Positions 1,009 to 23,317 of a stretch of DNA of 60,695 nucleotides are shown here, in pieces. The position numbers and the translations under genes were made by a program. The stretch spans positions 1 through 60,695 of the forward strand of contig JACVJF010000004.1 in the NCBI GenBank assembly GCA_015711855.1, given 5' to 3'. The notes under the pieces are model-generated. The model was not told the DNA's origin. It did not search any database and saw only the letters and a program-made list of their open reading frames with translations. How positions within the stretch are numbered: the first letter of the stretch is position 1; every line of letters begins with the position of its first letter. The DNA is from Candidatus Solincola quzhuomuensis (GTDB lineage: Bacteria; Actinomycetota; Geothermincolia; Geothermincolales; RBG-13-55-18).

Positions 1009-1935
1009 ATGGACGGCAGGGGGAGACGAGGTTTGGAAAGGGAAGAGGAAAGGGAGAAAGCCGGTCTGGACTACATCCTCATAGCCGGTGCCGCCATCCT
1101 TTGGGGCTCGGTGGGGGTGTTCCTGCGCTGGGTGGAGCTGCCGGGCAAAGAGCACTTCGTGGTCTTCATCCGCTCGGTCATGGGTGCGGCTTTCCTGGCG
1201 GGTTTGATCACCGCACGAGGCAAGCGGGACGAGCTCTATCCCGGCAAACACCCCTTGCTGCTCTTGGGCAGCGGGGTACTGCTAGCCCTGCACTGGGTCC
1301 TCTTTCTGAAGGCCCTCAACAACCTGCCCATCGGGGACGCCGAGTTCATCACCTACTTGGCCCCTGTCCTGGTGGCCCTTCTTTCCCCCGTGATCCTCAA
1401 GGAAGGGCTGGAGGGGACGACCCTTCTAGCTTTGGGCTTAGCCCTGGCAGGGATGGCCCTCATCTCCCTGACCGGGCAGGAAGGGGGGACGGGATCCACG
1501 ACGGCGGGCATCGTCTTCGCCCTCTCGGCGGCGGTCTCCTACGCCCTTCTGCTCTTCATCCTCAAATATTTAAGGGAGGACACCCCCACCCTTACGGTCA
1601 GCTTTTATCAGCTGGCGGTGAACGCCCTGGTCCTTTCTCCCTTCTGCGCTTTCAGGGACTTCTCCGTTTCCGCACGGGGATGGGCCTCTCTCGCCGTCCT
1701 GGGTATGTTGCATACCGGTCTGGCGGGGGTGGTCTACGTGTATGCGGTGAAGAGGGTGAAGGCTCAGCACGTGGGGATCATCGCTTATCTGGAACCGGCC
1801 AGCGCCATGCTCTTCGGGTTTCTCTTCCTCGAGGAGATCGTGGGCTGGCAGGACCTGCTCGGAGGGTTTCTTATCGTCGCCGCCGGGGCCATGGTCATCC
1901 GTCGCGCCTGGGAGAGACCCCGGCCCTCCGTTTAG
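1009..1935 (+). CDS. EamA/DMT-family transporter
   Basis: Multipass inner-membrane protein of about 308 residues with roughly ten hydrophobic segments arranged as two EamA repeats; the second begins near STTAGIVFALSAAVSYALLL. DMT-superfamily EamA proteins export or import small metabolites such as amino acids, but the substrate cannot be read from sequence. The open frame extends upstream to 754, but that part is Arg/Pro-rich and not membrane-like. ATG at 1009 is chosen; a TTG at 1033 behind the purine-rich stretch at 1019-1026 is a good alternative. The stop codon overlaps that of the convergent biotin carboxylase gene by three bases (TAG at 1933-1935 against the minus-strand TAA at 1932-1934), so no terminator separates them. 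Confidence 0.85.
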   Translation: MDGRGRRGLEREEEREKAGLDYILIAGAAILWGSVGVFLRWVELPGKEHFVVFIRSVMGAAFLAGLITARGKRDELYPGKHPLLLLGSGVLLALHWVLFLKALNNLPIGDAEFITYLAPVLVALLSPVILKEGLEGTTLLALGLALAGMALISLTGQEGGTGSTTAGIVFALSAAVSYALLLFILKYLREDTPTLTVSFYQLAVNALVLSPFCAFRDFSVSARGWASLAVLGMLHTGLAGVVYVYAVKRVKAQHVGIIAYLEPASAMLFGFLFLEEIVGWQDLLGGFLIVAAGAMVIRRAWERPRPSV

Positions 1936-3272
1936 AACATCTCCTGCTCCACCCACCGGGTGTGATACCTGCCCGCGATAAAATCCGGGTTGGAAAGCAA
2001 GCGCAGGTGGAAGGGGATCAGGGTGGACACCCCCTCGATCTCGAATTCCAGAAGGGCCTGGCGGAGGATGCGGAGCGCCTCCTCCCGATGGCTTCCGTGG
2101 ACGATGAGTTTGGCCAACAGCGAGTCGTAGTTGGGGGATACGTGGTATCCCTGGTAGCAGTGGGTGTCCACGCGGACGTGGGGCCCGCCCGGCGGAGACC
2201 ACTTCTCGATGATCCCGGGGGTGGGCAGGAAATCTCGGTGGTAGTCCTCGGCGTTGATGCGGCATTCGATGGCGTGGCCGTTTACGCCGATGTCCTCCTG
2301 GCGCAGGGTGGTGGGTTCGCCCATGGCGTTGCGTATCTGCTCCACGACCAGATCGACCCCGGTTATCATCTCCGTGACCGGGTGTTCCACCTGGATGCGG
2401 GCGTTGAACTCCATGAAGTAAAAATTGCCCTCCTCGTCCAGCAGGAACTCCATGGTCCCCGCGGAATCGTACCCTATGCTCTTCGCTCCCCGCACGGCCG
2501 CTTCCCCCATGCGCCGGCGCAACTCCGCATCGACGGCCGGTGACGGCGCTTCCTCCACCAGTTTCTGGTTCCTTCTCTGGATGGAGCATTCCCTTTCGTT
2601 CAGATGGACAACGTTCCCGTGGCGGTCCCCCAGGACTTGGATCTCCACGTGGCGGGCCCGGCGCAGGAATTTCTCCAGGTAGATCTCCTCGGATCCGAAG
2701 GCATGCCTGGCCTCCGCCTTGACCAGAGGCAAGGCCTTGACCAGCTCCTGGCGGTCGTGGACCACGCGCATGCCCTTCCCGCCCCCGCCCAAAGAGGCCT
2801 TGATGAGGACGGGGTAACCCAGTTCGTCGGCGACCTTGAGGGCGGTGGACTCGTCCAGGTCGGCGGAAGTGAGACCCGGCAGCACGGGCACCCCCGCTTC
2901 GGCCATGGTCTCCCGAGCCCGGGCCTTGTGGCCCATGAGGGCCAGGGCCTCCGGGGAGGGCCCGATGAAGACCAAGTCGTTCTCCAAGCAAGCCCGCGCG
3001 AACTCCTCGTTTTCCGCCAGGAAGCCGTAACCCGGGTGGACGGCGTCGGCCCCGCTGATCTCCGCGGCGCCGATGATGTTCCGGATGTTCAGGTAGGACT
3101 CGCCGCTGGCGGCCGGACCTACGCAGACCGCTTGGTCCACGTATTTTAGGTGGGCCGCGTCGACGTCTGCCTGGGAGTAGACGCCCACCGTCTCCAAGCC
3201 CAGGAGCTTGCAGGCCCGCAAAATGCGCAGGGCTATCTCGCCGCGGTTGGCGATGAGCACACGCTTGAACAA
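1932..3272 (-). CDS. biotin carboxylase subunit (pyruvate carboxylase subunit A / AccC type)
   Basis: 446 residues, the normal length for a free-standing biotin carboxylase, which uses ATP and bicarbonate to carboxylate biotin on a carrier domain. The order is the usual one: N-terminal Rossmann-like domain (FKRVLIANRGEIALRIL), ATP-grasp domain with the glycine-rich loop GGGGKGM near residue 165, then the FMEFNARIQVEHPVTE active-site segment near 290 and the biotin-carboxylase C-terminal domain. It has no biotinyl lysine of its own; the carrier is at the end of the neighbouring 3277-5115 product. The start is a TTG only four bases after the stop of that gene, with a GGAGGG ribosome site overlapping the stop, so the two are translationally coupled. 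The pair most resembles two-subunit pyruvate carboxylase; acetyl- or propionyl-CoA carboxylase use is less likely because the partner is a pyruvate-type carboxyltransferase. Confidence 0.92.
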   Translation of the reverse strand: MFKRVLIANRGEIALRILRACKLLGLETVGVYSQADVDAAHLKYVDQAVCVGPAASGESYLNIRNIIGAAEISGADAVHPGYGFLAENEEFARACLENDLVFIGPSPEALALMGHKARARETMAEAGVPVLPGLTSADLDESTALKVADELGYPVLIKASLGGGGKGMRVVHDRQELVKALPLVKAEARHAFGSEEIYLEKFLRRARHVEIQVLGDRHGNVVHLNERECSIQRRNQKLVEEAPSPAVDAELRRRMGEAAVRGAKSIGYDSAGTMEFLLDEEGNFYFMEFNARIQVEHPVTEMITGVDLVVEQIRNAMGEPTTLRQEDIGVNGHAIECRINAEDYHRDFLPTPGIIEKWSPPGGPHVRVDTHCYQGYHVSPNYDSLLAKLIVHGSHREEALRILRQALLEFEIEGVSTLIPFHLRLLSNPDFIAGRYHTRWVEQEMF

Positions 3273-3276
3273 GTCC

Positions 3277-5115
3277 CTACCCTCCCGAGGGCTCTATCTC
3301 CATGATCACTTCGTCGTACTCCACGCCCTTGCCGTGTTCGGCCAGGATGCGCTTCACCCGGCCGTTCACCGGGGAGGGTATCTCGTTGAAGAGCTTCATG
3401 ACCTCGATGAGGCAGAGGGTTTGCCCTTCCCGGACCTCATCTCCCTCCTCCACGAAGGGGGGTGCGCCGGGGGAGGGGGTGCGGTAGAAGGTGCCCACCA
3501 TGGGGGACCTCACCTGCACCAGCCCCAATTCCTCCTTTTCCAGTTGGGCTACCGGCGCTCGCCGAGAGGGGGTCGAGGCCGTTTCCGCTTTTAAGGCTTG
3601 GCTCCCCAGGCTTATGGTCACGGAAAGGTTTTGCAGGGCCCTGCTCACCCCCTCGCTGACCACGTTGGCCAGCCTCTCCGAGAGTTCCTCCAGGTAGGTA
3701 CCGTCCAGCATGGCCCGTTCCCGCCTCTCCATAGCCTTCTGCGGGGGCTCCTCTTCTTCGTCGATCACGGGGTTCTTCCTCCACTGGAAGAACTTGAGGG
3801 CCACATCCGGGAAGATGGCGTAAGATATGTAGTCTTCTTCCTTCTCCACCAAGGAGGGATCCAGCTCCTTCTTGGCCTTGGGGAGTTCCGGCTCCAGGAG
3901 GTCCGCGGGACGGCAGGTGATAGGCTTTTCTCCCTTGAGCGCCTTCTCCATGAGCTCCTCGCTTATGGGCCCGGCCGGCTTGCCGTAATAGCCTTTTACG
4001 TAGTTCACGATCTCGCGAGGGATGATCTTGTACCTCTCTCCGAGAAGCACGTTGAAGACCGCTTGTGTGCCCACCAACTGGCTGGTGGGGGTGACCAGCG
4101 GAGGATAGCCCATGTCCTTCCTCACCCTGGGAATCTCTTCCAGGACCTCCTCCATCCGGTCCAAGGCGTTCTGTTGCTCCAGCTGGGCTATGAGGTTGGT
4201 GGCCATTCCCCCGGGTATTTGGTGGGAGATCACCGTGATGTCGATGAGGGGCTGTTCGGCGCCCATGAGCTTGCGCTTCTTGGACACCACCTCGAAATAT
4301 TCCGACACGTCGCGGATGGCCTCGAAGTCCAGGTCCAGCTCGTATTCTGTGTCCTTGAAGGAGGCCACCAGGGTCTCGATGGCCGGTTGGCTGGTGTAGA
4401 GGGCGAGAGGGGCCGCCGCACAATCCACGATGTCCGCGCCCGCTTCGATGGCCTTCAGATAGGAGGTGGTGGCCATCCCCGTGGAGGCGTGGGAATGGAG
4501 TTGTATGGGCACCTCCACCGCTTCCTTGAGTCGCTTGACCAACTCGTAGGCCACATAGGGGGCGAGGATCCCGGACATGTCCTTGATGCAGATGGAGTCG
4601 GCGCCCATATCCACCAGGGTCTTGGCCGTCTCCACGTACCCCTCGATGGTGTGCACCGGGCTGATCGTATAACAGATGGTGCCTTGGGCGTGGGCGCCCT
4701 CGCGCTTGGTGACCTCTATGGACTTCTGCATGTTGCGCACGTCGTTGAGGGCGTCGAAGATGCGGATGATGTCGATCCCCCCGGCCACCGCCCTCTTGAT
4801 GAACTCCTCCACCAGGTCGTCGGCGAAGTTGCGGTAGGCCACCAGGTTCTGTCCGCGCAGGAGCATCTGGAGCTTGGTGCGCTTGAACCTCTCCCGGATG
4901 CGGTAGAGACGGTCCCAGGGGTCTTCGTGGAGGTATCTCATACAGACGTCGAAGGTCGCCCCACCCCAGACCTCCACGGAATGGTAACCCACCTCGTCGA
5001 TGCGTTCGGCGATGGGAAGTATGTCCGTTAGATGCATGCGGGTAGCCCACAATGATTGATGGGCGTCCCGAAGCGTGGTGTCGGTTATCCTCACCCGCTT
5101 TTTCTTCCTTTCCAT
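3277..5115 (-). CDS. pyruvate/oxaloacetate carboxyltransferase with C-terminal biotin carrier domain (PycB type)
   Basis: 612 residues. The N-terminal HMGL-like TIM barrel has the family signature DTTLRDAHQS (about 12-21) followed by LWATRM, and the IKDMSG segment carrying the metal/carbamyl-lysine region. A conserved carboxyltransferase domain follows, then a flexible linker, then a biotinyl domain with EVMKLFNE, where Lys574 is the expected biotinylation site. The reaction would be carboxyl transfer between biotin and pyruvate/oxaloacetate; related 5S transcarboxylase and oxaloacetate decarboxylase alpha proteins share the fold, but no membrane beta subunit or 12S subunit is nearby. ATG at 5115 is preferred because AAGGGG lies five bases ahead; an in-frame GTG at 5121 would overlap that site. 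The gene is first in a two-gene operon with biotin carboxylase. In this context it could replenish oxaloacetate and hence fumarate. Confidence 0.9.
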   Translation of the reverse strand: MERKKKRVRITDTTLRDAHQSLWATRMHLTDILPIAERIDEVGYHSVEVWGGATFDVCMRYLHEDPWDRLYRIRERFKRTKLQMLLRGQNLVAYRNFADDLVEEFIKRAVAGGIDIIRIFDALNDVRNMQKSIEVTKREGAHAQGTICYTISPVHTIEGYVETAKTLVDMGADSICIKDMSGILAPYVAYELVKRLKEAVEVPIQLHSHASTGMATTSYLKAIEAGADIVDCAAAPLALYTSQPAIETLVASFKDTEYELDLDFEAIRDVSEYFEVVSKKRKLMGAEQPLIDITVISHQIPGGMATNLIAQLEQQNALDRMEEVLEEIPRVRKDMGYPPLVTPTSQLVGTQAVFNVLLGERYKIIPREIVNYVKGYYGKPAGPISEELMEKALKGEKPITCRPADLLEPELPKAKKELDPSLVEKEEDYISYAIFPDVALKFFQWRKNPVIDEEEEPPQKAMERRERAMLDGTYLEELSERLANVVSEGVSRALQNLSVTISLGSQALKAETASTPSRRAPVAQLEKEELGLVQVRSPMVGTFYRTPSPGAPPFVEEGDEVREGQTLCLIEVMKLFNEIPSPVNGRVKRILAEHGKGVEYDEVIMEIEPSGG

Positions 5116-5423
5116 GCTCACCCCTTAAACGGAATCGGATTTCGGTTACATTCTAACTTTTTTCCAGCCCCGTGCCCACCGGCGTATACCTGCGGTTCCT
5201 CGGTTTTCGGCTCTGACCGGCGAAGATATCGAAAAACCGCATTACCGTCCTTCTCGGGCCGCTTGCCCACCGGCATCCTTGGTTACCTGGTCCAGACTGG
5301 AGGACGGACCTTGAGTTCCATCCTGGTTTCTCGATCCTTTAACCCGAGTGCTCCGTGGCCTCGGCAGGCTACTTCCGCCCTCGTCTCAAGGCCTCTAGAA
5401 AGGCTTCGCCGCAACCCCCACCT
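5116..5423. other. intergenic region upstream of the carboxylase operon
   Basis: 308 bases with no convincing gene. The first 50 bases next to the carboxyltransferase start are AT-rich (around 5140-5165) and probably hold its promoter; the rest is GC-rich and unstructured to my eye. GTTACATTCTAAC at about 5146-5158 vaguely resembles the GTTCAC-N6-TAAAGT element described elsewhere, but the match is too poor to count as a site. Confidence 0.4.
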
Positions 5424-6998: not shown

Positions 6999-7346
6999 TT
7001 AGGATGAGGGAGAGGACCTTTCCAAGCGGACGATTTGTCGCTTCTTCACACGGATATAATCGTTCAGGGAGTCGAGGTTGAGGCATTGGTTTAGATACGA
7101 GAGGTCCTTGAGCAAGGACCTGGACTGGGCTGTGTCGCCTGAGGAGATGGCCTCCTCCAGTCTACGTGTGATCTCCCGGGCGGTCTCCTCGATCTCATCC
7201 CGCATTTCCTGGCGGTCGCAGATCACCGGGTTACCGCAACGGGGGCATTCCCGGAAGACGAGCGGTCCGCAACACATGACGTTGCCGATGTGCCGGAACT
7301 CGTCGCCCTCACCCCGGTAACCGCATCGGTCGCAGGTTACTACCAT
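6999..7346 (-). CDS. zinc-ribbon protein with helical tail, function unknown
   Basis: 115 residues from the ATG at 7346, which has AAGGAG a few bases ahead; a longer frame to 7442 lacks a ribosome site. The N-terminus has a CDRCGY knuckle and then CPRCGNPVIC, enough cysteines for one or two rubredoxin-like zinc or iron sites. The rest is charged and helical. The first residues, MVVTCDRCGY, resemble the two small zinc-ribbon products at 9949-10128 and 10132-10356, which lie inside the glycyl-radical operon, so this could be a third, larger member of the same set. It is on the same strand but about 360 bases downstream of the 51-residue subunit gene, so operon membership is uncertain. Confidence 0.7.
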   Translation of the reverse strand: MVVTCDRCGYRGEGDEFRHIGNVMCCGPLVFRECPRCGNPVICDRQEMRDEIEETAREITRRLEEAISSGDTAQSRSLLKDLSYLNQCLNLDSLNDYIRVKKRQIVRLERSSPSS

Positions 7347-7708
7347 GGCCTTTCTCCTTCCGCCCGCGGGCAAGTCGCCCACCCCGTCGCTCTCCGGGTC
7401 GGTGCCGGGTTCCCGACTCGAATCGAACAACTTTCTCCCCATACCGTCAGGTGAAGGGTGGCGGTAAGCTCCCGTGGGGCGGCTTCCATGATCCGGTCAC
7501 CGAGCCCTCACCGACCGAACCAAATGGGCAATACTTCTTTTCGAAAGGACCGCGTAAGAAATCGCCGGCCCAAGCGAATCATTAAAAGATAGGTGGCGTT
7601 TAAGGTTCCCATCCCTTCGGAGAAAAGGAACGACGCTTTTCAAATAACCGGGCACGGACCACCGTACCTTGTCGGGACGGGCGAGGCGTGCACCGTTCTT
7701 GATCGTTC
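7347..7708. other. intergenic region, no feature recognised
   Basis: 362 bases between the 51-residue subunit gene and the zinc-ribbon gene, both on the minus strand. No conserved-looking frame, strong hairpin or terminator T-run was seen. Confidence 0.3.
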
Positions 7709-7864
7709 TCAGCGCGCCTCGAAGTTCTCGCACTCGGCGTCATCGGCATTGTGCGGCTTGGCCGTGTAATACTCGCTCTTTCCGTCCGACTCGCGCCGCA
7801 CGCAGTCCCCCCGGCTGGGGTCCTCCTCAAGGGGAAAGAACCACTTGCAATCTCCACAACTCAT
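7709..7864 (-). CDS. 51-residue cysteine-rich small subunit, BssC/AssC-like
   Basis: A very short gene: ATG at 7864 behind GGAGGTGGAAC, stop TGA at 7709-7711. The product begins MSCGDCKWFFPLEEDPSRGD and continues CVRRESDGKS, with a fourth cysteine in AECENF near the end. The C-x2-C, C, C arrangement with an aromatic after the first pair and GDC in the middle is that of the small iron-sulfur subunits (gamma type) of benzylsuccinate synthase and related glycyl radical enzymes, which bind one HiPIP-like 4Fe-4S cluster and stabilise the catalytic subunit. It is the last gene of the operon that starts with the glycyl radical enzyme at 13226, 130 bases after the first activase. Assignment rests on motif pattern, size and context. 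Confidence 0.8.
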   Translation of the reverse strand: MSCGDCKWFFPLEEDPSRGDCVRRESDGKSEYYTAKPHNADDAECENFEAR

Positions 7865-7994: not shown

Positions 7995-8924
7995 TCAGCC
8001 GCCCACGGTGACCGTGAGGCTCCGCGAGGTGAAGATGTCCACGATTCCATACAGCTTTTCTTCAGGATATCCCGCGCCTTCGGGGAAGGGATATTCGAGG
8101 CCGAATATTCGATACTTGGCGCCCGCGTAAGGATGATAGGGGAGGATGTCCACCTCGCATTCCCGGCCGTTGCGGCACAAACCCCGGATGAAGTCGGCGG
8201 TACGGGAGAGGTTTTCCTCCCCGTCGTTGAACCCGGGGATGATGGGGATGCGGAAACGCAGCTCTCGGGCGTATTCCGCCAGCCGCCTGGCGTTCTCCAG
8301 GATGATCTCGTTGGAGGCGCCGCAGTGGGAGCGGTGCGCGGCGGAGTCCATGTGTTTGAGGTCCAACAGAAAGTAATCGGTAACCTCGATCATCCTCTCC
8401 AACGTTTCCCAGGCGGCGAAACCGCAGGTGTCCAAGGCCGTATTGAGTCCGCGCCCCTTGGCCTCCGCCAAAAGGTCGTAGGTGAACTCCGGCTGGGCCA
8501 GAGGCTCACCTCCGGAAACGGTCAGCCCTCCCCCCGAATGCTTATAGAAAGGCTTGTCCTTCTCCACCTCCGCAAGGACCTGGTCCACTGTCATCAGCTT
8601 GCCCCAGACCACGAGGGCCTCTTCCGGGCAGGCTTCGGCGCAGCGGAAACAGTCGATGCACCGTTCCCGGCGTATGCGGGGGAGACGAGGACCCTCCATC
8701 TCGACGGCTCCGGCGGGACATACCTCCAGGCATTTACCGCAACCCGTGCAGTTGTTGCGGTAGGGAAGAACTTCCGGGAATCGCCGGTTGCCCTCGGGAT
8801 TGTGGCACCAACGGCAGTTGAGCAGGCAACCTTTTAGAAACACCGTGGTCCGAATCCCCGGCCCGTCGCAGAGAGAATAGAACTGTATGTCGTTGACGTA
8901 TCCCGCCGTGTCCCTTCTTCCCAT
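7995..8924 (-). CDS. glycyl-radical enzyme activase, radical SAM (copy 1)
   Basis: 309 residues. The radical-SAM motif CLLNCRWC (CxxxCxxC) follows DGPGIRTTVFLKG, the signature of pyruvate formate-lyase-activating-enzyme relatives. An inserted ferredoxin-like domain binds two further 4Fe-4S clusters: CTGCGKCLEVCP and CIDCFRCAEACP. GGEPL and the SAM-binding segments follow. Such eight-iron activases serve glycyl radical enzymes of the benzylsuccinate synthase, hydroxyphenylacetate decarboxylase and glycerol dehydratase classes. The ATG at 8924 is ten bases from the stop of the second activase, with AAGGGTGAAGG as ribosome site. It would abstract H from the glycine of the 10737-13226 enzyme. Having two activases beside one target is unusual. 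Confidence 0.92.
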   Translation of the reverse strand: MGRRDTAGYVNDIQFYSLCDGPGIRTTVFLKGCLLNCRWCHNPEGNRRFPEVLPYRNNCTGCGKCLEVCPAGAVEMEGPRLPRIRRERCIDCFRCAEACPEEALVVWGKLMTVDQVLAEVEKDKPFYKHSGGGLTVSGGEPLAQPEFTYDLLAEAKGRGLNTALDTCGFAAWETLERMIEVTDYFLLDLKHMDSAAHRSHCGASNEIILENARRLAEYARELRFRIPIIPGFNDGEENLSRTADFIRGLCRNGRECEVDILPYHPYAGAKYRIFGLEYPFPEGAGYPEEKLYGIVDIFTSRSLTVTVGG

Positions 8925-8933
8925 CCTTCACCC

Positions 8934-9872
8934 TTATCCGCCGATAGTGGTGGCCAGACCTTGTTCTTCCAGGATGTCCTGCAAGTCGGCGATCTCGCTA
9001 GCCGCCAGGCTTTCCACGTCACGGTATTCCCATTCCCTTCCCAACCAGCGGTATTTGTCCTGGCACCAGTTGTGGAAGGGAAGGAGGTCTACCTGGATGA
9101 TGGAGGGACCCAGCCCGGCGAGGAAGCGGGCCACCTGCTCCATGTGTTCCGGGGAATCGTTGAAACCCGGGATGACCGGTATGCGCACGATCACGTCTGC
9201 GCCCACCTCCGCCAGGCGCCGGAGGTTGGCCAGGATGGGTGAGTTGTTCACCCCTGTACGCAGTAGATGCTGCTTGCCGCTGAGGCACTTGATGTCGTAG
9301 AGGAATATGTCCGTGTAGGGACGCATGGAATCCAGGATTTCCCATTCGCAAAAACCGCTCGTGTCCAAACAGTTGTGAATGCCCCGTTCCTTGGCCCCGC
9401 GCAGCAGCTCCCGGGTGAATTCGGGGAAGGCGGTCGGTTCTCCCCCCGTCAGGGTCATGCCTCCGCCGGAATTGATGTAGAAGGGCATGTCCCTTTCCAC
9501 CTCGTCGAGGATCTCCTCTACCGTCTTGGGTTCCCCGACGCGCACCAGTGCGCCGTAAAAGCAGGCCTCCACGCACTTCATGCAATGGTCGCAGCGGGTG
9601 AGGTCTATCTTGTAGTAGTGCTCGTCTTCCTCGTCACCGCGCAAGGCTATGGGTGGCTGGATGGCTCCCCGGGCACAGGAGTCGAAACACATCCCGCACT
9701 GCCTGCACAGTGAGGGTTTCCAGTATATCTCCGGATAGAAATGTATGCACTCCGGGTTGTGGCACCAGGCGCAGTTCAGCCTGCATCCCTTGACGAAAAC
9801 CGTGGTGCGGATGCCCGGGCCGTCGTTTATGGAATAGCGCTGGATGTTGGTGATCAAGACCTGTTGAGACAT
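8934..9872 (-). CDS. glycyl-radical enzyme activase, radical SAM (copy 2)
   Basis: 312 residues from ATG 9872, which has GGGAG seven bases ahead; the frame continues upstream but without a ribosome site and with basic, low-complexity sequence. DGPGIRTTVFVKG precedes CRLNCAWC (radical-SAM cluster), then an inserted two-cluster domain with CRQCGMCFDSC and CDHCMKCVEAC, whose spacing between the two cysteine groups is about ten residues longer than in the neighbouring activase. GGEPTAF follows. It is similar to the first copy throughout the barrel but clearly diverged, so this is not a recent duplication. It lies between the zinc-ribbon genes and the first activase in the same operon. Either activase may be the true partner of the glycyl radical enzyme. 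Confidence 0.92.
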   Translation of the reverse strand: MSQQVLITNIQRYSINDGPGIRTTVFVKGCRLNCAWCHNPECIHFYPEIYWKPSLCRQCGMCFDSCARGAIQPPIALRGDEEDEHYYKIDLTRCDHCMKCVEACFYGALVRVGEPKTVEEILDEVERDMPFYINSGGGMTLTGGEPTAFPEFTRELLRGAKERGIHNCLDTSGFCEWEILDSMRPYTDIFLYDIKCLSGKQHLLRTGVNNSPILANLRRLAEVGADVIVRIPVIPGFNDSPEHMEQVARFLAGLGPSIIQVDLLPFHNWCQDKYRWLGREWEYRDVESLAASEIADLQDILEEQGLATTIGG

Positions 9873-9948: not shown

Positions 9949-10128
9949 TCAGGCGTTCTCTCTCTGCAGTTGCTTCTCGGCCCTCTCCTCCTCCAGCTCG
10001 TTCACCACCACCCAGGCATAGCACTGCGGGCACTCGCGGTACGCGGTCTCCGCATCCAAGGTGGTGTTGTAGAGGTAGCGAAAGTCGGACTTCACTCCCT
10101 CATATCCGCAGTTCTCGCACTTGACCAC
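9949..10128 (-). CDS. 59-residue mini zinc-ribbon / rubredoxin-like protein
   Basis: GTG start at 10128 with GGAGGT seven bases ahead; stop at 9949-9951. The product begins MVKCENCGYEG and has a second knuckle ECPQCYAWVV, followed by a short charged helix rich in Glu. Two CxxC pairs about 28 residues apart fit a single rubredoxin-like iron or zinc site. It sits in the glycyl-radical operon, three bases from the next zinc-ribbon gene and before the second activase. It could be a small electron carrier or assembly factor for the enzyme; nothing in the sequence proves either. Confidence 0.75.
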   Translation of the reverse strand: MVKCENCGYEGVKSDFRYLYNTTLDAETAYRECPQCYAWVVVNELEEERAEKQLQRENA

Positions 10129-10131
10129 GGC

Positions 10132-10356
10132 TCATACCTCCCTGTTCTTACCGCTGAATTTCCTACCCCATATGTCGCTCAGGCCCCATGGTCTTTCGTC
10201 TTCGCTTTCTCCGTCTCTCTGCTCCAGTTCGTCCACGGGAAACGGGTTGAGGCAGATGGGGCACCGACGAATGGTGACGGGTCCCACCTCTGCCTGGGCC
10301 ACGAGTTGGAACTCCCCCAGAGACCCGTAGCGACCGCATCTCGGACAGACGACCAT
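10132..10356 (-). CDS. 74-residue mini zinc-ribbon / rubredoxin-like protein
   Basis: Starts MVVCPRCGRYGS and has the second pair RRCPICLNPFP, so one rubredoxin-like metal site is expected, followed by an acidic and then basic tail (GRKFSGKNREV). It lies between the beta-like subunit gene and the 59-residue zinc ribbon, with short spacers, so it is part of the glycyl-radical operon. The paired CxxC arrangement, size and position match the 59-residue neighbour and the N-terminus of the 6999-7346 product. The role is unknown; rubredoxin-like electron transfer to an activase is one possibility. Confidence 0.75.
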   Translation of the reverse strand: MVVCPRCGRYGSLGEFQLVAQAEVGPVTIRRCPICLNPFPVDELEQRDGESEDERPWGLSDIWGRKFSGKNREV

Positions 10357-10372: not shown

Positions 10373-10672
10373 CTATTTCTCCTCTATCTGCCTCTGCGGA
10401 CGGAATTGAGGATCCCACATGAACTCGCTGGTATCCGTCCGGACCCGGTCGATCTCCTTGTAATGCGGGCAGTCGCTGGCATCGGTGTTGTCGAAGACCG
10501 GCTTGTTCTTCTCCCCGATCTTGATGGCCGTGCACAACCCGTCGCCTGCCGCCGATGCGGAGTTCTGCCGGAAGTTACTGCACATGGCGCAAGCCTTCTC
10601 CGGCATCTCCCGGCGTCCCTTGGAGATGGCTCCCTGGAGCCACTGCTGCCGCAGCTGTTCCCAATCGCTCAT
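10373..10672 (-). CDS. cysteine-rich small subunit, BssB/AssB-like
   Basis: 99 residues, ATG at 10672 behind AAGGGGG. The middle holds CAMCSNF, GLCTAIKI and SDCPHY, that is C-x2-C followed by two single cysteines, consistent with one HiPIP-like 4Fe-4S cluster as in the beta subunit of benzylsuccinate synthase, which covers the active-site entrance of the catalytic subunit. N-terminal (DWEQLRQQWLQGA) and C-terminal helical parts flank the cluster domain. It is immediately downstream of the glycyl radical enzyme gene, 64 bases away, where beta subunits are commonly found. The cysteine pattern is also that of the 51-residue product at 7709-7864, so the complex could be alpha-beta-gamma. Confidence 0.8.
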   Translation of the reverse strand: MSDWEQLRQQWLQGAISKGRREMPEKACAMCSNFRQNSASAAGDGLCTAIKIGEKNKPVFDNTDASDCPHYKEIDRVRTDTSEFMWDPQFRPQRQIEEK

Positions 10673-10736: not shown

Positions 10737-13226
10737 TCAAACGCCGAGCTCCTGCACGTTGCGGGCGATGATGGTGTCCTGGGTCTTCTTGTTCAGGTCC
10801 ACGAAGTGGGCACTGTATCCGGCGATACGCACGATGAGCTCGGGGTACTTTTCGGGTTCCCTCTGGGCGGCCTTCAGGGTCTCGTTATCCACCATGTTGA
10901 ACTGCACGTGGTCGATCCCCAGCTCGGCCCAGGTCTTGATGTAGGAGTGCCAGATGTGGAAACCCTTTTCGCCGGCCAACTGCTGCGGGGACAGCCTTTG
11001 GTTGAGCAGGGTCGCCCGCACGTCTCCTATGTGGTCGATCTTGGCCACCGAGCGCAGGACGGCCGTGGGCCCTTTCTTGTCCAGGCCCGCTCCGGGAGAG
11101 CAGCCGCCGTCGTACAGGGTATCGCCCAGCCTCCTGCCGTTGGGCAGGGCCCACACCTTGGTGGCGTTGGTCACGTAAGCCGCGATGTTCTCCGGCAGCG
11201 GAGGCCAGGGGTTCCCGGTGGGATCCTTAATCTCCCAGGAGTGCTTGGCCACGTCGCGGTGGCAACGCACGTGTATCTGATCCACGTAGTCGTCGTCGTT
11301 GCCCCACTTGGGAGCGCGCACGAAATCCATGCGCATCTCCTCGTACCCCTCCCAGTTGTTCCTGAGGGCCTCGATGAGCTGGGCCATGGTGTACTTCTTC
11401 TCGTCGAAAACCAACTTCTTTACCGCGGCCAAGCTGTCGCCCGTCTCCATCCAGGCGAAGAAGGTGATCCAGGAATTGCCGCGTTCCGAGGGATGGGAGG
11501 AGTCCACCCCCAGCTCCACGCACCGTTCGTACAGGCCCGAAAGTAGCGGCCTGGGATCCAGGAATTGGGCCATGTAACGGCCTCCGTTGGTCAGCTTGAC
11601 CAGCGTGTCCATCATCCACTTGACCTGGGTGTACCAAGCCTGATAGAGCTCCTCGAAGGTCTCGAACTTGGAGGCGTCACCGGTGTGGGGCCCGAACTGC
11701 ATCTGGAGCACGTTGTCGTAACCGTCGAAGAGTGCGTATTCGATGGCCTTGGCGGCGATGATGGTGGCGTTGGCCATGCGGAAGGGCTGGCACCCCAGCT
11801 TGGTGTCCGGGCAGGGAGACATGCAGGCCTGGTGCACCCAGCGCCGCGCCTCCCGCAGGGGATGCTTGTGCCAGTGCATGGCGTTGGTGATGAGGATGGG
11901 GTCGTTGCGCATGGACGGATACCCCAAGCCCTGGCGAATGCACTCGAACACCTCCCGGAGCGTCTTCATCCTCACGTTCGGATGGTAGCGGAAGGCGAAG
12001 GTGGGGTTGGCCACCCTGACCAAGCGGGCCGCCTCCAAAAGGCAGTCGGTCATGTCGTTGCAGGCGTCGGTGCCGTCCTCGTTGACCCCTCCTATAGTCC
12101 ACACCCAGGTCCCGGTGATTCCCTGCAGGGTATCGCGGGCCAGCATCAGCCAGAACCACCCTACCTCATAGCAGCGGATGAGAAACTCCCCGGTGAGGTC
12201 CAGGGCTTCTTCGTGGGTGAGGACTTTATCCTGGTTGACGTCCTTGTCGTAGAAAGGCCCGTGCCAGTAATCGGGGCGGGCGGGCCAGGCTCCCTCGCAG
12301 GCCTCGTAGCGGCAGGCGATCTGGATGAAGTGGTCGAACTGGAGGGACTCGTGAAGGTGCTCCGGGGGCTTGGCAGGAACCTTCCAGCAGACCTCGGCGA
12401 TGCGCAGGAGCTCTTCCTTGCGCTTGGGATCGGTCTCGAAGTTCTCCGCGATTATCTTGGCCAGGCGGCTGTAACGTCGGGCCCAGCGAATGACCGCCTC
12501 CAGCACCACCTTCATGGACTTCCAGACGTCGAGTTTCTCGTAATAAGGAAGGTCTTCCGGGTCGGGGACCTTGTTGTAGATGCGGTCCTCCGCCTCCTTT
12601 ATGCGCTCGTCGATCTCGGCGATTATTCCCTCCAGACCCAGTCGGAACATGTAATCCCACTGCTTGGTGGCGTATCCTATGCGGGAGATGGGAAGACCCC
12701 AGCCTATGACCCCGGTGAGGAGCTTCACGATCTCCTCGGGCGGCACCAAGTTGAAGACCTTGGCCCCTGTGGTCTGAGGGTTCCAGTAATCGCAGAGCTC
12801 TCGGATGAGCTTCAGGTTCTCGTCCACCGGTTCAGGTATGACCGTCCGGTCGTTGTAGAGGTCCTCGTTGAGTAGGAAGAGGATCTCCGGGTGCCAGACG
12901 ATGGTGTGGGGCCGGGAGCCCAAGTACCCCATTATCTGGGCATGGTCCTGGATGAATATGGTGATGTTGTCGAAGACGTTGGCAAGGGCCTTGGCGTAGC
13001 GCATGCGCAGTGAGTCGTGTTCGTTCGCCTTAAAGGCCTCGGTGAACAGGACCGCTCGCTCAAGGTCGACCTTTACCCCAGGCTGATAGCCCGATCCCTT
13101 GGCTCCCTTCTTCCATACCGCCTTGCGCAGGTAATCCAGCCTTTTGGACCTCTTGTGTTCCGCCCACCACCACCATTGTCCGCTCTTTTCGATCTCCTCG
13201 ATGGTTCTCGTTTCCACCGCAGCCAT
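10737..13226 (-). CDS. glycyl radical enzyme catalytic subunit, fumarate-adding (benzyl-/alkylsuccinate synthase-like)
   Basis: 829 residues from the ATG at 13226, which has AAGGGGG six bases ahead (TTG at 13232 also in frame). Near the C-terminus VRIAGYSAHFVDL contains the radical glycine (about Gly803), and HQACMSPCPDT contains the thiyl cysteine (about Cys468). An arginine 15 residues after that cysteine (GCQPFRMANAT) matches in spacing Arg508 relative to Cys493 of benzylsuccinate synthase, which I recall as a fumarate ligand. Length, the CMSPCP loop and the two small iron-sulfur subunits in the same operon favour a fumarate-adding enzyme over pyruvate formate-lyase, diol dehydratase or hydroxyphenylacetate decarboxylase. 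The hydrocarbon or other co-substrate cannot be read. First gene of the operon running to 7709. Cytoplasmic and oxygen-sensitive by family. Confidence 0.85.
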   Translation of the reverse strand: MAAVETRTIEEIEKSGQWWWWAEHKRSKRLDYLRKAVWKKGAKGSGYQPGVKVDLERAVLFTEAFKANEHDSLRMRYAKALANVFDNITIFIQDHAQIMGYLGSRPHTIVWHPEILFLLNEDLYNDRTVIPEPVDENLKLIRELCDYWNPQTTGAKVFNLVPPEEIVKLLTGVIGWGLPISRIGYATKQWDYMFRLGLEGIIAEIDERIKEAEDRIYNKVPDPEDLPYYEKLDVWKSMKVVLEAVIRWARRYSRLAKIIAENFETDPKRKEELLRIAEVCWKVPAKPPEHLHESLQFDHFIQIACRYEACEGAWPARPDYWHGPFYDKDVNQDKVLTHEEALDLTGEFLIRCYEVGWFWLMLARDTLQGITGTWVWTIGGVNEDGTDACNDMTDCLLEAARLVRVANPTFAFRYHPNVRMKTLREVFECIRQGLGYPSMRNDPILITNAMHWHKHPLREARRWVHQACMSPCPDTKLGCQPFRMANATIIAAKAIEYALFDGYDNVLQMQFGPHTGDASKFETFEELYQAWYTQVKWMMDTLVKLTNGGRYMAQFLDPRPLLSGLYERCVELGVDSSHPSERGNSWITFFAWMETGDSLAAVKKLVFDEKKYTMAQLIEALRNNWEGYEEMRMDFVRAPKWGNDDDYVDQIHVRCHRDVAKHSWEIKDPTGNPWPPLPENIAAYVTNATKVWALPNGRRLGDTLYDGGCSPGAGLDKKGPTAVLRSVAKIDHIGDVRATLLNQRLSPQQLAGEKGFHIWHSYIKTWAELGIDHVQFNMVDNETLKAAQREPEKYPELIVRIAGYSAHFVDLNKKTQDTIIARNVQELGV

Positions 13227-13860
13227 TTTCAACCCCCTTATCTCTCGTCTTTCTTACGGGAATCGTCAGCTGGCTTTGCCGGCACGAAAAGGCTCCGTGA
13301 TCGTTTCCCCCAAAGCCGCTTACCGCCATCCCCCCTCTCCTCTCCGTCGGTCCCGCGTGACCTCTCCAAGTAAAGCGTCGAAGAAAAGCCCTTTGGACAA
13401 CTCTCCGTTGCTGCGTTGCGGCGATGCCTTGTGCGGACCTTTTCTCGTGCTGGGGTGCGTCTGCTGCGAAGAAAGGTAGATGCTGTGCAAGAAATTGTTC
13501 GATCGTCGCTTACCTACTCATTCCCTCAAAAAATTCAACTTGTATTTAGTAACCAGTTCTTAATTTTTATTATATTTCCTAATAAACTGGTATGTTAATT
13601 TGCCTTAATTTTAGTAAAAGTGCACTAAATTTTCAAGGGGTTTTTCAATCTTTTTGGTGAGTTTTTTCCCGGGAGGGACGAGTTGCCACGACCAATTCGC
13701 TGGCAGTGCTCCAAAGCATGAGACTCGGAACCTGGGAGGGGGATTATCGAAAGGCACCTGCTCGCGGGCATGGCGTCGCCTCGTCGCGCCTTATCGGCAG
13801 AATCGCCCTTTTTAGCGAATATGGCCGCTCTTCCGCTCTTTTGCAGGAGGAAGGCCGGCC
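13227..13860. other. long leader/intergenic region, AT-rich between 13500 and 13660
   Basis: No gene recognised. The AT-rich centre holds the promoter/site C (listed separately) and a dyad ACCAGTT-N26-AACTGGT (13552-13591) that lies downstream of that promoter in the direction of the operon. The GC-rich flanks show nothing clear. Confidence 0.4.
13608..13636 (-). promoter_or_regulatory. promoter and shared element (site C) upstream of the glycyl-radical operon
   Basis: On the minus strand TTGAAA (13631-13636), a 17-base spacer and TAAAAT (13608-13613) form a good promoter. The spacer and -10 contain GTGCAC-TTTTAC-TAAAAT, a close match to the GTTCAC-N6-TAAAGT element at 6096-6113 and 23318-23335. 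The same stretch carries a dyad TTTAGT-N8-ACTAAA (13610-13629). The distance to the ATG at 13226 is about 380 bases, so a long leader is implied if this is the main start site. Confidence 0.55.
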
Positions 13861-14661
13861 CTAACGCCCCTTGAACACGGGATCCCGCTTCTCTCGAAAA
13901 GCCGCCAAACCCTCCCTGGCGTCCTCGCTGGCCAGAGCTCGTCCCATCACGGCGTTGGCTTCCTCGCGTTCCTCCTCGGTCAGCGCCCGTGGCTGGGAGA
14001 TCATCTTGAGCAGTCGCTTGTGACCGGCCAGGGACAGGGGGGCGTTGGAAGCCAGGCGGTGGGCCAGATTCTCGGTGAAAGCCTCCAGTTCCTCATCGGG
14101 GACGAGATAGTCCAGCATCCCCATCTCGAATGCTTCCCGGGCCTCGAAGAGCTCGGCGGTGAGGAACACCTTCTTCGTGCGGGCCAGCCCCAGATTGCGT
14201 AGGAAGCGGTGTAGACCTTCCGGCGGGTAGACAATGCCCAGGCGAGCCGGGGGCATGCCCATGCGGCAGTTCTCCGACCCCACCCGCAGGTCGCAGGCCA
14301 TGCTGGTCTCGCATCCGGCCCCCACGCAGTAGCCCCTGATCATGGCGATGACCGGGAAGGGGCAGTCCTCGATGGCCTCCAACCCGTACTGCAGGGGACC
14401 CTTGGCCTCTATCTGCTTCTGGACCTCCTCGGGGATGCCCTCGGGCACGGCAGAGAGGTCCATACCGGCGGAAAAAGCCTTATCTCCGGATCCTCGAAGC
14501 ACGGCGCAGCGTACCGTCCCCCTCTCGGCCAAGTCCTGCAGGGCCCGAGCCAGGGAAATGAGTAGGGGGACGGATAGCGCGTTCCTGCGCTTCGGCCGGT
14601 TGATGGTCAGGAAAGCCAGCGGTTCCCTGATGTCCACCAGAAGCTCTTCGGCATCGCTCAT
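13861..14661 (-). CDS. enoyl-CoA hydratase/isomerase family protein
   Basis: 266 residues with the crotonase fold: INRPKRRNALSVPL near the N-terminus, oxyanion-hole segment DKAFSAGMDLSAV, IRGYCVGAGCETSMACDLRV with one acidic active-site residue (Glu of GCETS), and VYPPEGLHRFL with the second. Both glutamates expected for hydration are present. The substrate is unknown; beta-oxidation of an acyl-CoA made by the adjacent acyl-CoA synthetase is a reasonable guess. It is encoded on the same strand as that synthetase, but 437 bases separate them, so a separate promoter is possible. Confidence 0.88.
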   Translation of the reverse strand: MSDAEELLVDIREPLAFLTINRPKRRNALSVPLLISLARALQDLAERGTVRCAVLRGSGDKAFSAGMDLSAVPEGIPEEVQKQIEAKGPLQYGLEAIEDCPFPVIAMIRGYCVGAGCETSMACDLRVGSENCRMGMPPARLGIVYPPEGLHRFLRNLGLARTKKVFLTAELFEAREAFEMGMLDYLVPDEELEAFTENLAHRLASNAPLSLAGHKRLLKMISQPRALTEEEREEANAVMGRALASEDAREGLAAFREKRDPVFKGR

Positions 14662-15098: not shown

Positions 15099-16646
15099 TC
15101 AGGAAGAGGCCCCGCCGTAGAGCTTGCGCAGTTCCTTCTTCAGGATCTTGCCGGTGAGGGTGCGGGGGATGGCCTCCACGAAGGTTATCTTCTTGGGTAT
15201 CTTGTAGCGGGCGAGCTTCCCCTCGCAGAAGGCCTCCATCTCCTCCATGGTGAGGGGGTCATCCGGGTTCTCCAGAAGGATCAGGGCGTGACCCACCTCA
15301 CCCCATTTCTCGTCCGGCATGCCGATGACCGCCACGTCCTTGACCTTGGGGTGCTCCATGAGCACCTTCTCCACCTCGGCGGGATAGATGTTCTCTCCGC
15401 CGGAGATGATCATGTCCTTCTTGCGGTCCACGACGTAGATGTACCCGTCCTCGTCCACGGTGGCCAGATCCCCGTAGTGGAACCATCCATCTTTCATCGC
15501 CTCCGCGGTCTCCTCGGGCATGTTCCAATAGCCCAACATCACGTAAGGGCCGCGGGAGCATATCTCCCCCACCTCGCCGGACCCCGGCCTCACCTCCGTG
15601 CCGTCCTCCTTGAGCACCTTCACCTCGGCGTGGAACATGGGGATGCCCGCGCTGCCGATCTTTTCCATGTTGGAACAGGAAAGCACGATGGAAGTCTCCG
15701 TGCACCCGAAGACCTGGATGAGGAGGGGCACCTTCATCTTCTCCACGATGCGGTCCAGTAGCTCCCGGGAGGCGGGAGCACCCCCTATCCCCACCCCCTT
15801 GAGGGAGGAAAGGTCGTACTGGGAGAAGCTGGGGACGTCCAGCATCATCTGGAGCATGGTGGGCACGGCGCCGAAGTGGGTGACCCGGTGGCGGTCGATG
15901 ATCTGTAGGGCCTCCTCCGGGTTCCAGAATCTCTGGAATATTATGGTACCTCCGATGTAGAAGGTGGGCATGGTGATGATGTTCAGGCCCCCGGAGTGAA
16001 AGAGGGGTATGGAGACCAGGGAGACGGCGTTGATGTCGAAAAGCAGCTCCAGGGTGTCGTTGAAGGTGTTCCAGAAGGTCTTGCGGTGGGGGAGCACAGC
16101 CCCTTTGGCCCGGCCGGTGGTCCCGGAGGTGTACATGATCATCTGGGGGTCCTCCATGTCTGGCGGTTCGGGTACCGCGGGTTCCTCTTCCCCGAAACCG
16201 GCCAACCACTCCTCGTAGGGGCGGCTGAAGTCGGGGACCGGGTCCCCCGCCGTGGCCAAGATCTCTATGGGTTCGCGGTAGAGCTCCCTCAGCTGACCAA
16301 CCGTGCCCGCAAACTCCGGGTGGAAGAAGAAGGCCCGGGGGTTGGTGTCCTTGAAGACGTACTCCAGTTCTTGGGGTGTGAGGCGGAAGTTGAGGGGGAT
16401 GAAGATGAACCCCGTCTTCGCACAGGCGAAGTACACCTCCATGAACTCGATGCTGTTGAAGAAGAGGGCGGCCACCCGGTCTCCTTTCTTCAGGCCCGCC
16501 TGGAGGAGCCCGTTGGCCACCTGGTTTACGCGTCCGTTGAACTCCGTATAGGTGAGAGCGCGATCCCCGGCTATGAAGGCCGTCTTGTCCTTGGTGAGAG
16601 GAAAGACAGCCCTCTTTAAAGCCCAGTTGCCCACGTTCACGATCAT
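15099..16646 (-). CDS. acyl-CoA synthetase (AMP-forming), long-chain/aryl type
   Basis: About 515 residues. The adenylate-forming superfamily motifs are complete: MYTSGTTGRAKGAVLPH (P-loop-like, near 170), GCTETS (A5), YGDLATVDEDGYIYVVDRKKDMIISGGENIYP (A7-A8 with hinge) and the C-terminal lysine in PRTLTGKILKKELR (A10). It would activate a free carboxylate to its CoA thioester. Position suggests it activates the product of the glycyl radical enzyme or the fatty acids fed to beta-oxidation; the sequence does not fix chain length. ATG 16646, a GTG at 16640 better spaced behind GGGGG, and a TTG at 16658 are all possible starts. Divergent from the MmgE/PrpD gene across an AT-rich regulatory region. 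Confidence 0.9.
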   Translation of the reverse strand: MIVNVGNWALKRAVFPLTKDKTAFIAGDRALTYTEFNGRVNQVANGLLQAGLKKGDRVAALFFNSIEFMEVYFACAKTGFIFIPLNFRLTPQELEYVFKDTNPRAFFFHPEFAGTVGQLRELYREPIEILATAGDPVPDFSRPYEEWLAGFGEEEPAVPEPPDMEDPQMIMYTSGTTGRAKGAVLPHRKTFWNTFNDTLELLFDINAVSLVSIPLFHSGGLNIITMPTFYIGGTIIFQRFWNPEEALQIIDRHRVTHFGAVPTMLQMMLDVPSFSQYDLSSLKGVGIGGAPASRELLDRIVEKMKVPLLIQVFGCTETSIVLSCSNMEKIGSAGIPMFHAEVKVLKEDGTEVRPGSGEVGEICSRGPYVMLGYWNMPEETAEAMKDGWFHYGDLATVDEDGYIYVVDRKKDMIISGGENIYPAEVEKVLMEHPKVKDVAVIGMPDEKWGEVGHALILLENPDDPLTMEEMEAFCEGKLARYKIPKKITFVEAIPRTLTGKILKKELRKLYGGASS

Positions 16647-16844
16647 CACCCCCGTCAATCCCTGCTTCTCCGGACCCTGGCGAAGGCTTTCATGGCGGGC
16701 AGGCCGGAAAGAGGACCTAATATTGGGAGCTTCATGTCTCGCCTCTTTCTTCCCCGGACCGCACTTCCGCGGTAGGGAGGACGCGAATCCGAGGATCCGG
16801 TTTTGCCCAGCTCCGACAGCCCACGGGCAAAATTATGGTATAAG

Positions 16845-18587: not shown

Positions 18588-19004
18588 CTAAGAAGACGTC
18601 CCCAAACGGGTGCGTATGAAATCCGCCACCTGCGAGATGTAGGTCCCGGAGACGAAGACCTCGGCCACCCCCATCTCCTTGAGCTTGGGGATGTCCTCGG
18701 CCGGGATGATCCCGCCCACGAGGACCATCTTGTCCTCCACGCCCTTTTCCCGGAGGAGGGACATGATCCGACGCACTATGCTCAGATGGGCTCCGGAGAG
18801 GATGGATAGACCGATCACGTCCACGTCCTCGTCCACGGCGGCGTTGACGATCTCCTCCGGGGTGCGCCTCAAGCCGGTGTAGATCACCTCGAATCCCTCG
18901 TCCTTCAGGCCGTAGGCGATGACCTTGGCCCCTTGGTCGTGCCCGTCCAGGCCCGGTTTGGCTATGAGCACCCGGATAACCTTTCCACCCGTTTTGGCTT
19001 CCAT
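18588..19004 (-). CDS. B12-binding small subunit of acyl-CoA mutase
   Basis: 138 residues, the size of a free-standing cobalamin-binding subunit. The DxHxxG motif is LDGHDQG, with His22 the expected lower cobalt ligand; SILSGAH and [10 protein letters not shown] line the nucleotide-tail pocket. Together with the 21162-22925 product it makes a complete two-subunit adenosylcobalamin mutase of the methylmalonyl-CoA mutase family. The ribosome site GGGGAGG precedes the ATG, and the gene is 14 bases after the radical SAM-PDZ gene, so all three are one operon with the small subunit last. Confidence 0.93.
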
Positions 19005-21161: not shown

Positions 21162-22925
21162 TCAGAAGGGGGACACGGCCTGGTATTCCCCGAAGACCTC
21201 CCGCAGCACGTCGCATATCTCCCCCTCGGTCACGTAGGCCTTCACGCACTGGATGAGGTGAGGGAGCAGGTTCTCCTCCTCCTTCCGGGCCAAGTCTTCC
21301 AGCTCCTTCAGGAGGCGAGCCACCTCCCGGCCGTCGCGGTTCCTCTTGATCTCCGCCAGGCGGGCCTTCTGCCTCTCCTCCGCGCGCTCCCTCCTCTCTG
21401 GGTCGTAGGGGTTGGGGACCAGGCGGTTGGTGGTCACCTCCAGCTCGTGCTCGCCGGTGAAGCAGTTGACCCCCACCACCAGGCGTTCGCCCCGCTCTAT
21501 GGCTCGCTGCCGCTCATAGGCGCTGCGGGATATCTCCCTCTGCATGTACCCGTTTTCTATGGCCGCCACCGCTCCGCCCATCTTCTCGATCTTCTCCAGT
21601 TCCTCCCAGGCGGCGTTCTCGATCTCGTCGGTGAGGGACTCCATGCAGTAGGAACCGGCGAATGGATCGGTGTACTCCAGGAGGCGCGCCTCGCAGGCGA
21701 TGATTCTCCCCGCGTCCTGGGCCAGCTGCAGGGCTTCCATGCTCCACCCCAACCCCAGGGGCTCGTCGTAGGGCGGGAAGGGGAGGGGCCGTCCTCCGGA
21801 GAGGGCGCTGGCCACCGCCCCGATGACCGCCCGGGTGAGGTTGTTCAGCGGCCGTTGCAAGGTGGTGGAGGAGGGCCCGATGTGAGCCCCGATGGCCTGG
21901 CGGATGCGCATGCTCCGCTCGTCCCGGGCCCCGAAGCGCTCCTTGAGTATCCGGGCGTACATGCGGCGGGCCGCCCGCTGGAAAGCGATTTCCTTGAGCA
22001 TCTCCATGGAGCCCCCGAAGGCGTTGAAGGTGAAGCGGGGGGCGAACTCGTCCACCTCGAGTCCGGCTTCCACCCCCACCTTGAGATATTCCACGGCGAT
22101 GGCCATGGAGAAGGCCAGGTCCTGCTCCCGGGTGGCTCCGGCCTCCCTTATGTGGTAGCCGCCTATGCTGGTGATGTTCACGTTGGGCATGTGCCTGGTT
22201 ATGAAGACCAGGCTGTCCCGGAAGAGGCGCAGGGCGTGTCTCGGCGGGAAAATGTAGGTGCCGCGGGCGATGTATTCCTTGAGGATGTCGTTCTGGGGGG
22301 TGGCCCGCAACTTATCCAGGGGGATGCCCCGCTTCTCGGCCAGGGCGGCGTACATGGCGATGATCACGTTGGCCGGGGCGTTGATGGTGAAGTTGGAGGC
22401 GATGCGGTCGAGGTTTAAATCCCCCTGATAAGGCTCGTAGATGATCTCGAAGTCGGCCAGGGTGTCCACGCACACCCCCACCTTGCCCACCTCCCCCTCG
22501 GCCAGGGGATGGTCGGAGTCGTAGCCGCACTGGGTGGGGAGGTCGAAGGCCAGGTTGGGGCCCCCTCGGCTCCCTTGCTCGAGAAGACCCTTGTAGTAAT
22601 CGCGGGTGTCCTCCGGGGTGCCGTATCCGGAATAGATGGCGGCGCGGGTCTGCCCTCCGGCTCCGGGGATCTCCCCCTTTCCCCCCGCCAGAGAGGCCAG
22701 TCGAGCCAGCCCGGCCATGGGTTCTATGGGAAAGGTACCGGCGGTGAAGGGATAGGTGCCCGGGAAGCCCACCTTCTCCAGGAAGTCGAAGGGCTCGATG
22801 TCCAGAGGGGTGAAGAAGCGGCTGCTCTCCTTGTTCAGGTAGGGAAACTTCTGAATGGCTTTGGCCAAGGGCCCTTCCTCCCAGGCGCGCCGCGCCTCGC
22901 TTATCTTTTCCAGATACTCGTTCAT
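21162..22925 (-). CDS. acyl-CoA mutase large subunit, methylmalonyl-CoA mutase family, atypical substrate segment
   Basis: 587 residues from ATG 22925 behind AAAGGGGG. Family landmarks are clear: FDLPTQCGYDSDHP, TPQNDILKEYIARGTYIFPP, SIGGYHIREAGA, APRFTFNAFGG and the YTDPFAGSYCMESLTDEIE region. It would catalyse an adenosylcobalamin-dependent carbon-skeleton rearrangement with the small subunit at 18588-19004. The stretch that in methylmalonyl-CoA mutase reads TMY..RPWTIRQYAGFS is replaced here by a longer segment (residues 64-102, ending GQTRAAIYSGYG), so the tyrosine and tryptophan that shape the usual pocket are not recognisable. The substrate may therefore be larger or different from methylmalonyl-CoA. 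A TATAAT-like -10 lies upstream near 23038-23043. Confidence 0.88.
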   Translation of the reverse strand: MNEYLEKISEARRAWEEGPLAKAIQKFPYLNKESSRFFTPLDIEPFDFLEKVGFPGTYPFTAGTFPIEPMAGLARLASLAGGKGEIPGAGGQTRAAIYSGYGTPEDTRDYYKGLLEQGSRGGPNLAFDLPTQCGYDSDHPLAEGEVGKVGVCVDTLADFEIIYEPYQGDLNLDRIASNFTINAPANVIIAMYAALAEKRGIPLDKLRATPQNDILKEYIARGTYIFPPRHALRLFRDSLVFITRHMPNVNITSIGGYHIREAGATREQDLAFSMAIAVEYLKVGVEAGLEVDEFAPRFTFNAFGGSMEMLKEIAFQRAARRMYARILKERFGARDERSMRIRQAIGAHIGPSSTTLQRPLNNLTRAVIGAVASALSGGRPLPFPPYDEPLGLGWSMEALQLAQDAGRIIACEARLLEYTDPFAGSYCMESLTDEIENAAWEELEKIEKMGGAVAAIENGYMQREISRSAYERQRAIERGERLVVGVNCFTGEHELEVTTNRLVPNPYDPERRERAEERQKARLAEIKRNRDGREVARLLKELEDLARKEEENLLPHLIQCVKAYVTEGEICDVLREVFGEYQAVSPF

Positions 22926-23036
22926 CTCATCCCCCTTTCCCCGCTCGCATGGTCCGTATTGACCCGTTACGTAGGTTATAGGCGATTCCGCAAGGACGGC
23001 TCCGCGTAGGGTAGCGCAAGACGCAGCCACCACCAA

Positions 23037-23046
23037 GATTATAATC
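23037..23046 (-). promoter_or_regulatory. possible -10 box of the mutase operon
   Basis: GATTATAATC is a self-complementary 10-mer holding TATAAT on both strands, about 115 bases upstream of the mutase start in otherwise GC-rich DNA. No convincing -35 at 16-18 bases was found, so this is weak. Confidence 0.35.
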
Positions 23047-23317
23047 ACCCTCCGGGCTTATGGCCTCCGCAACGTCCCGAGCACCCGTCGACGTCTACGT
23101 GCTCCGGGTTGCGGGACGGCGTGGATTTACCTCGCCCCCGGGACGAGCGCTCGTAGCCCCCTTTTTCCCGCCTCGGGCGGGACTCCGTAGCCTCTAACCT
23201 TCGGCGGAAGCCTTGCCGTTCCGATTGGCACGAAGCGGGAGCAGCGGCCGAAACGCTCGCGCGCCAAACCCCCTCCTCCCTAGGCCGTATGCAGCCGGGC
23301 GTTCGTGGTCAGCAAAT

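Follow-up and report, generated by a model that had tools for sequence, protein, structure and literature searches.

The window, by which we mean the whole stretch of 60,695 nucleotides from Candidatus Solincola quzhuomuensis, carries on its minus strand a cluster of genes in the order alpha, MasB, a 74-residue rubredoxin-type protein, a 59-residue MasE, activase 1, activase 2, gamma and zeta (Table 1). The alpha subunit probably starts at the ATG at 13226. No riboswitch or other known RNA was found in the cluster.

Table 1. Features of the alkylsuccinate synthase region in the window, with the evidence for each.
Feature	Coordinates	Strand	Evidence or remark
Biotin carboxylase	1932..3272	-	TIGR00514 over cut-off
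Carboxyltransferase with biotin carrier domain (OadA/PycB type)	3277..5121	-	NF006761 over cut-off
Zeta, 115 aa: rubredoxin-type knuckle plus three helices, Cys25 (TGT)	6999..7346	-	Column is UGA in homologues
Gamma subunit gene (masC-like, 51 aa)	7709..7864	-	PF08201, MasC/TutF matches, model, purifying selection
Activating enzyme 2 (radical SAM)	7995..8924	-	TIGR02494, 334 bits
Activating enzyme 1 (radical SAM)	8934..9872	-	TIGR02494, 340 bits
Delta subunit (MasE-like, 59 aa, without C-terminal tail)	9949..10128	-	9o8u_D, E=1.7e-10
Second delta-like rubredoxin-type protein, PWG tail (74 aa)	10132..10356	-	Weak MasE match (E=0.025) including PWG tail; family pattern
Beta subunit (MasB-like, HiPIP-type, 99 aa)	10373..10672	-	9o8u_B, E=4e-10
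Catalytic alpha subunit (MasD/AssA-like glycyl radical enzyme)	10737..13232	-	MasD 1118 bits vs TutD 569; alkyl-type active-site residues
Promoter-like site upstream of alpha, 11/12 matches	13569..13598	-	Such sites no more numerous in the region than expected by chance
Crotonase-family protein (enoyl-CoA hydratase type)	13861..14661	-	PF00378
Acyl-CoA ligase (AssK-like candidate)	15099..16658	-	PF00501, NF004837
B12-binding part of acyl-CoA mutase	18588..19004	-	TIGR00640 over cut-off
Methylmalonyl-CoA-type mutase, large part, start uncertain	21162..23048	-	TIGR00641 485 bits, PF01642

The gamma frame starts with ATG, reads MSCGDCKWFF...RGDC...AECENFEAR over its 51 residues and has AGGAGG about 7 nt upstream, in agreement with the strong ribosome site described in the initial annotation. 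A frame of this length might be open by chance and no gene at all: 121 ORFs of at least 40 residues overlap the first 14 kb of the window, and many frames of such size arise by chance in this region, so that homology and conservation have to decide. The Pfam profile PF08201 (BssC_TutF) matches the protein at 52.1 bits (E=6.6e-14; curated cut-off 25 bits), bearing out the earlier identification as a BssC-like gamma subunit. That identification had been made to depend on conservation of the frame in related genomes, and the frame is indeed kept in eight further Geothermincolia operons, all with a ribosome-site-like sequence. Substitutions in the gene are mostly synonymous, with dN/dS values of 0.00-0.05 between the window and its nearest relatives and a pN/pS of 0.20 summed over all pairs, indicating purifying selection. 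Of 59 related genomes, 11 have the catalytic alpha subunit; gamma occurs once in each of these and in none of the others (Fisher 3.6e-12), and it is missing from all 14 control genomes. Given the family match, the synonymous bias, the conserved ribosome site and the co-occurrence with alpha, we rejected a chance open frame and assign it practically no probability; the 51-residue frame is a real gene.

The best solved relative of the protein is MasC, the gamma subunit of (1-methylalkyl)succinate synthase (MASS) from Azoarcus sp. HxN1 (PDB 9o8u, chain C, E=1.4e-11; PMC12358834), followed by TutF (E=2.2e-6), the BSS gamma subunit (TutF/BssC) of Thauera aromatica (PDB 4pkc, 9pzj). BSS beta (TutG/BssB, PF18512) and the HPAD small subunit are, like gamma, HiPIP-like small subunits of glycyl radical enzymes; the former gave a marginal match to gamma, under the cut-off, and the latter gave none. 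The window gamma shares its length, four cysteines and fold with MasC, at 40% identity over the structural alignment, and its Pfam family, fold and four cysteines with BSS gamma. These cysteines (CX2CXnCXnC; C3, C6, C21 and C45) are invariant across 27 aligned relatives. The HiPIP-like fold put forward as a check in the initial annotation was also recovered by prediction: the AlphaFold model (pLDDT 82) has TM-scores of 0.81 to 9o8u_C (MASS) and 0.80 to 9pzj_C (BSS), and MASS and BSS gamma chains take Foldseek ranks 1-4. Foldseek gave only modest E-values (best 0.002, none under 0.001), as might be expected of a protein with 51 residues. Membership in the XSS gamma family is well supported.

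Two gamma relatives, each a single metagenome sequence (L043:9586-9771 and L074:17999-18244), have all four cluster cysteines replaced, so the iron-sulfur cluster may be dispensable. They need confirmation, and suggest that the cap rather than the cluster would be the essential part of gamma.

The residues of the MASS active site have been named as W185, F192, Y194, C477, R492, T598, F600 and E690 (PMC12358834). The window alpha keeps seven of these eight (W185, Y194, C477, R492, T598, F600 and E690) and has Ile in place of F192, a position that varies among alkyl-type sequences. None of the residues of the BSS fumarate/toluene site (S199, N615, I617 and Q707) is found in the window alpha, which has Y, T, F and E. 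This pattern supports an enzyme of the alkane type (alkylsuccinate synthase, MASS/ASS), with alkane addition as its predicted reaction. The fumarate-adding assignment made earlier is thus upheld and can be sharpened to an alkane-type (MasD-like) rather than a toluene-type enzyme.

The similarity of gamma to TutF (E=2e-6), together with a fold about equally near to BSS gamma (TM 0.80), might point to a benzylsuccinate-type (aromatic) synthase as the enzyme to which it belongs. However, MasC is the better match, the 5-residue insert found in toluene-type gammas after the second cysteine and before the third is missing from the window gamma, and the active-site residues of alpha are those of the alkane type and not of BSS. 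The cluster also contains relatives of MasB and MasE, which have no sequence similarity to any BSS subunit (PMC12358834). On the strength of the active-site residues, the missing insert and the best matches, a toluene-type enzyme was rejected, and we regard an aromatic-type gamma as very improbable. The location of the gene directly after the activases, with gaps wider than elsewhere in the cluster, would also be consistent with a free small iron-sulfur or zinc protein beside the operon, for example an electron carrier for the activases. Such a protein is hard to reconcile with the specific match to gamma families, with the strict co-occurrence with alpha and with the fact that most other operons found have gamma ahead of alpha, and we give it very little weight. 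We therefore place at about 0.93 the probability that the gene product is a MasC-type gamma subunit and belongs to an alkylsuccinate synthase, which as a glycyl radical enzyme adds an alkane to fumarate. Taken alone, gamma adds one more member to a known type; the operon is a variant in its gene order, its two deltas and zeta.

Relatives of the alpha, beta and delta subunits of the MASS cluster are likewise present in the window cluster. The gamma gene precedes alpha in MASS, whereas it follows two activases in the window, which also differs in having two delta-like proteins, the extra zeta gene and an actinobacterial host. On the alpha tree, gamma lies upstream of alpha, mostly directly, in 22 rows (20 loci plus MASS and BSS, whose gamma positions were taken from published gene clusters), and follows the activases in all eight Geothermincolia rows that could be scored; a single change on the tree accounts for the two orders. 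Two further loci have gamma after the activases: L115, from the same family as the window genome, and L108, a contig of the deltaproteobacterial MAG DeMMO5_3 that carries only an alpha fragment and was left off the tree. The initial annotation had called this position unusual, which holds across all operons found; within the Ca. Geothermincolia clade the position is fixed and hence the rule, and it recurs in that one deltaproteobacterial MAG. It had also placed gamma at the far end of the operon, which needs correction: gamma is second to last, followed on the same strand by the 115-residue zeta gene (6999-7346). Zeta comes after gamma in all nine Geothermincolia operons with a complete region, the window included.

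In the window, gamma is flanked by gaps of 130 and 362 nt; the spacing between activase and gamma is about 15-35 nt in several relatives. No promoter-like site was found between activase and gamma in the window, and the search for a separate promoter or terminator around gamma gave no signal beyond chance. The stretch from gamma to zeta has two terminator-like sites (7651-7668 and 7562-7577), in a region where the count of such sites equals that in shuffles. Given the two gaps, transcription of gamma together with its neighbors is putative.

In operons with a single delta, MasE ends in a PWGKSAG-type tail, and the delta C-terminal tail contacts the glycyl radical domain in the solved complex (PMC12358834). 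In the window and its relatives, one delta is without the tail and another has a PWG tail, which may reflect duplication and a division of work. The tail of the second delta has decayed in three Geothermincolia operons (L036, L039 and L113). A split delta, with a tail-less rubredoxin-type protein and a W-G-tailed protein, also occurs in L061, L062 and L108. Separately, L036, L039 and L113 have one activase only, activase 2 not being found, where the window has two.

Gamma is predicted to fold as a small HiPIP-like domain. By analogy with the solved MASS and BSS complexes, it presumably holds one [4Fe-4S] cluster through Cys3, Cys6, Cys21 and Cys45, and would bind alpha by capping a hydrophobic patch, keeping the catalytic subunit soluble and stable. 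Such capping and solubilizing of alpha has been reported for BSS and proposed for MASS. The activases would equip alpha with its glycyl radical, the delta-type subunits would hold the glycyl domain and MasB would gate the alkane. Alkylsuccinate breakdown by carbon-skeleton rearrangement and decarboxylation is an established pathway, and the neighboring genes may be those required for it in this organism: the CoA ligase, B12 mutase and biotin-dependent decarboxylase or carboxyltransferase encoded close by would receive the product. A radical SAM protein with a PDZ domain (19019-21043, minus strand) is encoded between the two B12 mutase parts.

A multisubunit alkane-activating enzyme was first solved in 2025. 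The window cluster would extend this enzyme to a class of actinobacteria about which little is known, where the gene order is different but fixed and small metal proteins are more numerous; we found no report of an alkylsuccinate synthase from Geothermincolia in the open-licence literature.

The zeta neighbor matters more than gamma itself. Its rubredoxin-type domain is related to MasE (profile E=2.8e-7), 9o8u_D is its top Foldseek match, and its model (pLDDT 89.5) has three C-terminal helices; no Pfam or NCBIfam family matched zeta over the cut-off. Zeta shares the rubredoxin-type CX2C...CX2C domain with MASS delta (MasE), but differs from it in a Sec or Cys between the two knuckles and in the three-helix C-terminal domain. 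Homologues in other alkylsuccinate synthase operons looked truncated until they were read through TGA. An in-frame TGA stands at one zeta column in 18 loci from 17 genomes and more than one phylum, and the same column is TGC or TGT in 15 loci, among them the window (TGT), whose copy is thus a Cys homologue with no UGA; one paralogue has neither. Zeta loci include L049:11623-11973, L052:6562-6915, L066:12013-12351, L071:5290-5643, L075:1857-2201, L108:4590-4916, L061:9558-9881, L070:20159-20503 (minus strand) and L145-L161. Pseudogenes or sequencing errors were rejected as the source of these UGAs because they fall at one column in 17 genomes, are always TGA and never TAA or TAG, and have conserved sequence on both flanks.

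Single-sequence SECIS z-scores for zeta were mostly weak, which called for a test across the whole set against a codon null, in which the same zeta proteins were rewritten with pooled codons. In the 15 loci of the main subtype, the sequence following the UGA has a mean of 7.47 of 10 pairs, against 6.14 in the codon-shuffled null (0/2000), and this stretch folds more stably than in the Cys versions (p=0.003). In L071, L108, L061 and L070 the hairpin pairs weakly or is displaced. A tRNA-Sec was detected in six of the seven zeta hosts tested (69-82 bits), and SelB scored over the cut-off in 14 of 16. On sequence evidence of this kind, zeta is likely a selenoprotein family, with Sec as the predicted residue at the UGA.

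Zeta and an alkyl-type alpha occur together in 16 genomes among 395 drawn from one phylum (Fisher 1e-23), zeta without alpha in two and alpha without zeta in three of the same 395. Other operon genes adjoin zeta in both zeta-only genomes. They are also present in the fetched stretch at 15 of 17 further zeta loci, one of the two exceptions lying at a contig end. The family is probably tied to alkylsuccinate synthase and undescribed: it was described in none of the literature or databases searched, and no paper treating a selenoprotein and alkylsuccinate synthase jointly was found in the open-licence literature. The words rubredoxin, glycyl, succinate and alkane are absent from a 2026 selenoproteome inventory, and NF041197, the dual-CXXC family of that inventory, did not match the zeta sequences.

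This linkage suggests that zeta may be a working part of the enzyme. We lean slightly toward a role as a conserved rubredoxin-type relative of delta with a redox-active Sec (Cys in the Geothermincolia clade) between two metal knuckles, which would reduce or protect the activase, the glycyl radical or the delta iron site. If this reading is true, zeta would add a new family to the selenoproteins and supply a part so far missing from anaerobic alkane activation. Should zeta be a selenoprotein, gene callers for which UGA is a stop would truncate it, and heterologous systems made of masBCDE and an activase would be without it. It would then also be a concrete candidate for the question raised with the structure, of the reason for a rubredoxin-type subunit in the enzyme and the way in which activation is managed.

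The deltaproteobacterial bin DeMMO5_3 contains many alkyl-type alpha genes or fragments (L040, L041, L057, L061, L067, L108, L109 and L110), including the nearest relatives of the Geothermincolia alphas, and gene transfer is possible. A distant glycyl radical enzyme homologue with 35% identity (G003:C13:3305-5620) reads through one in-frame TGA.
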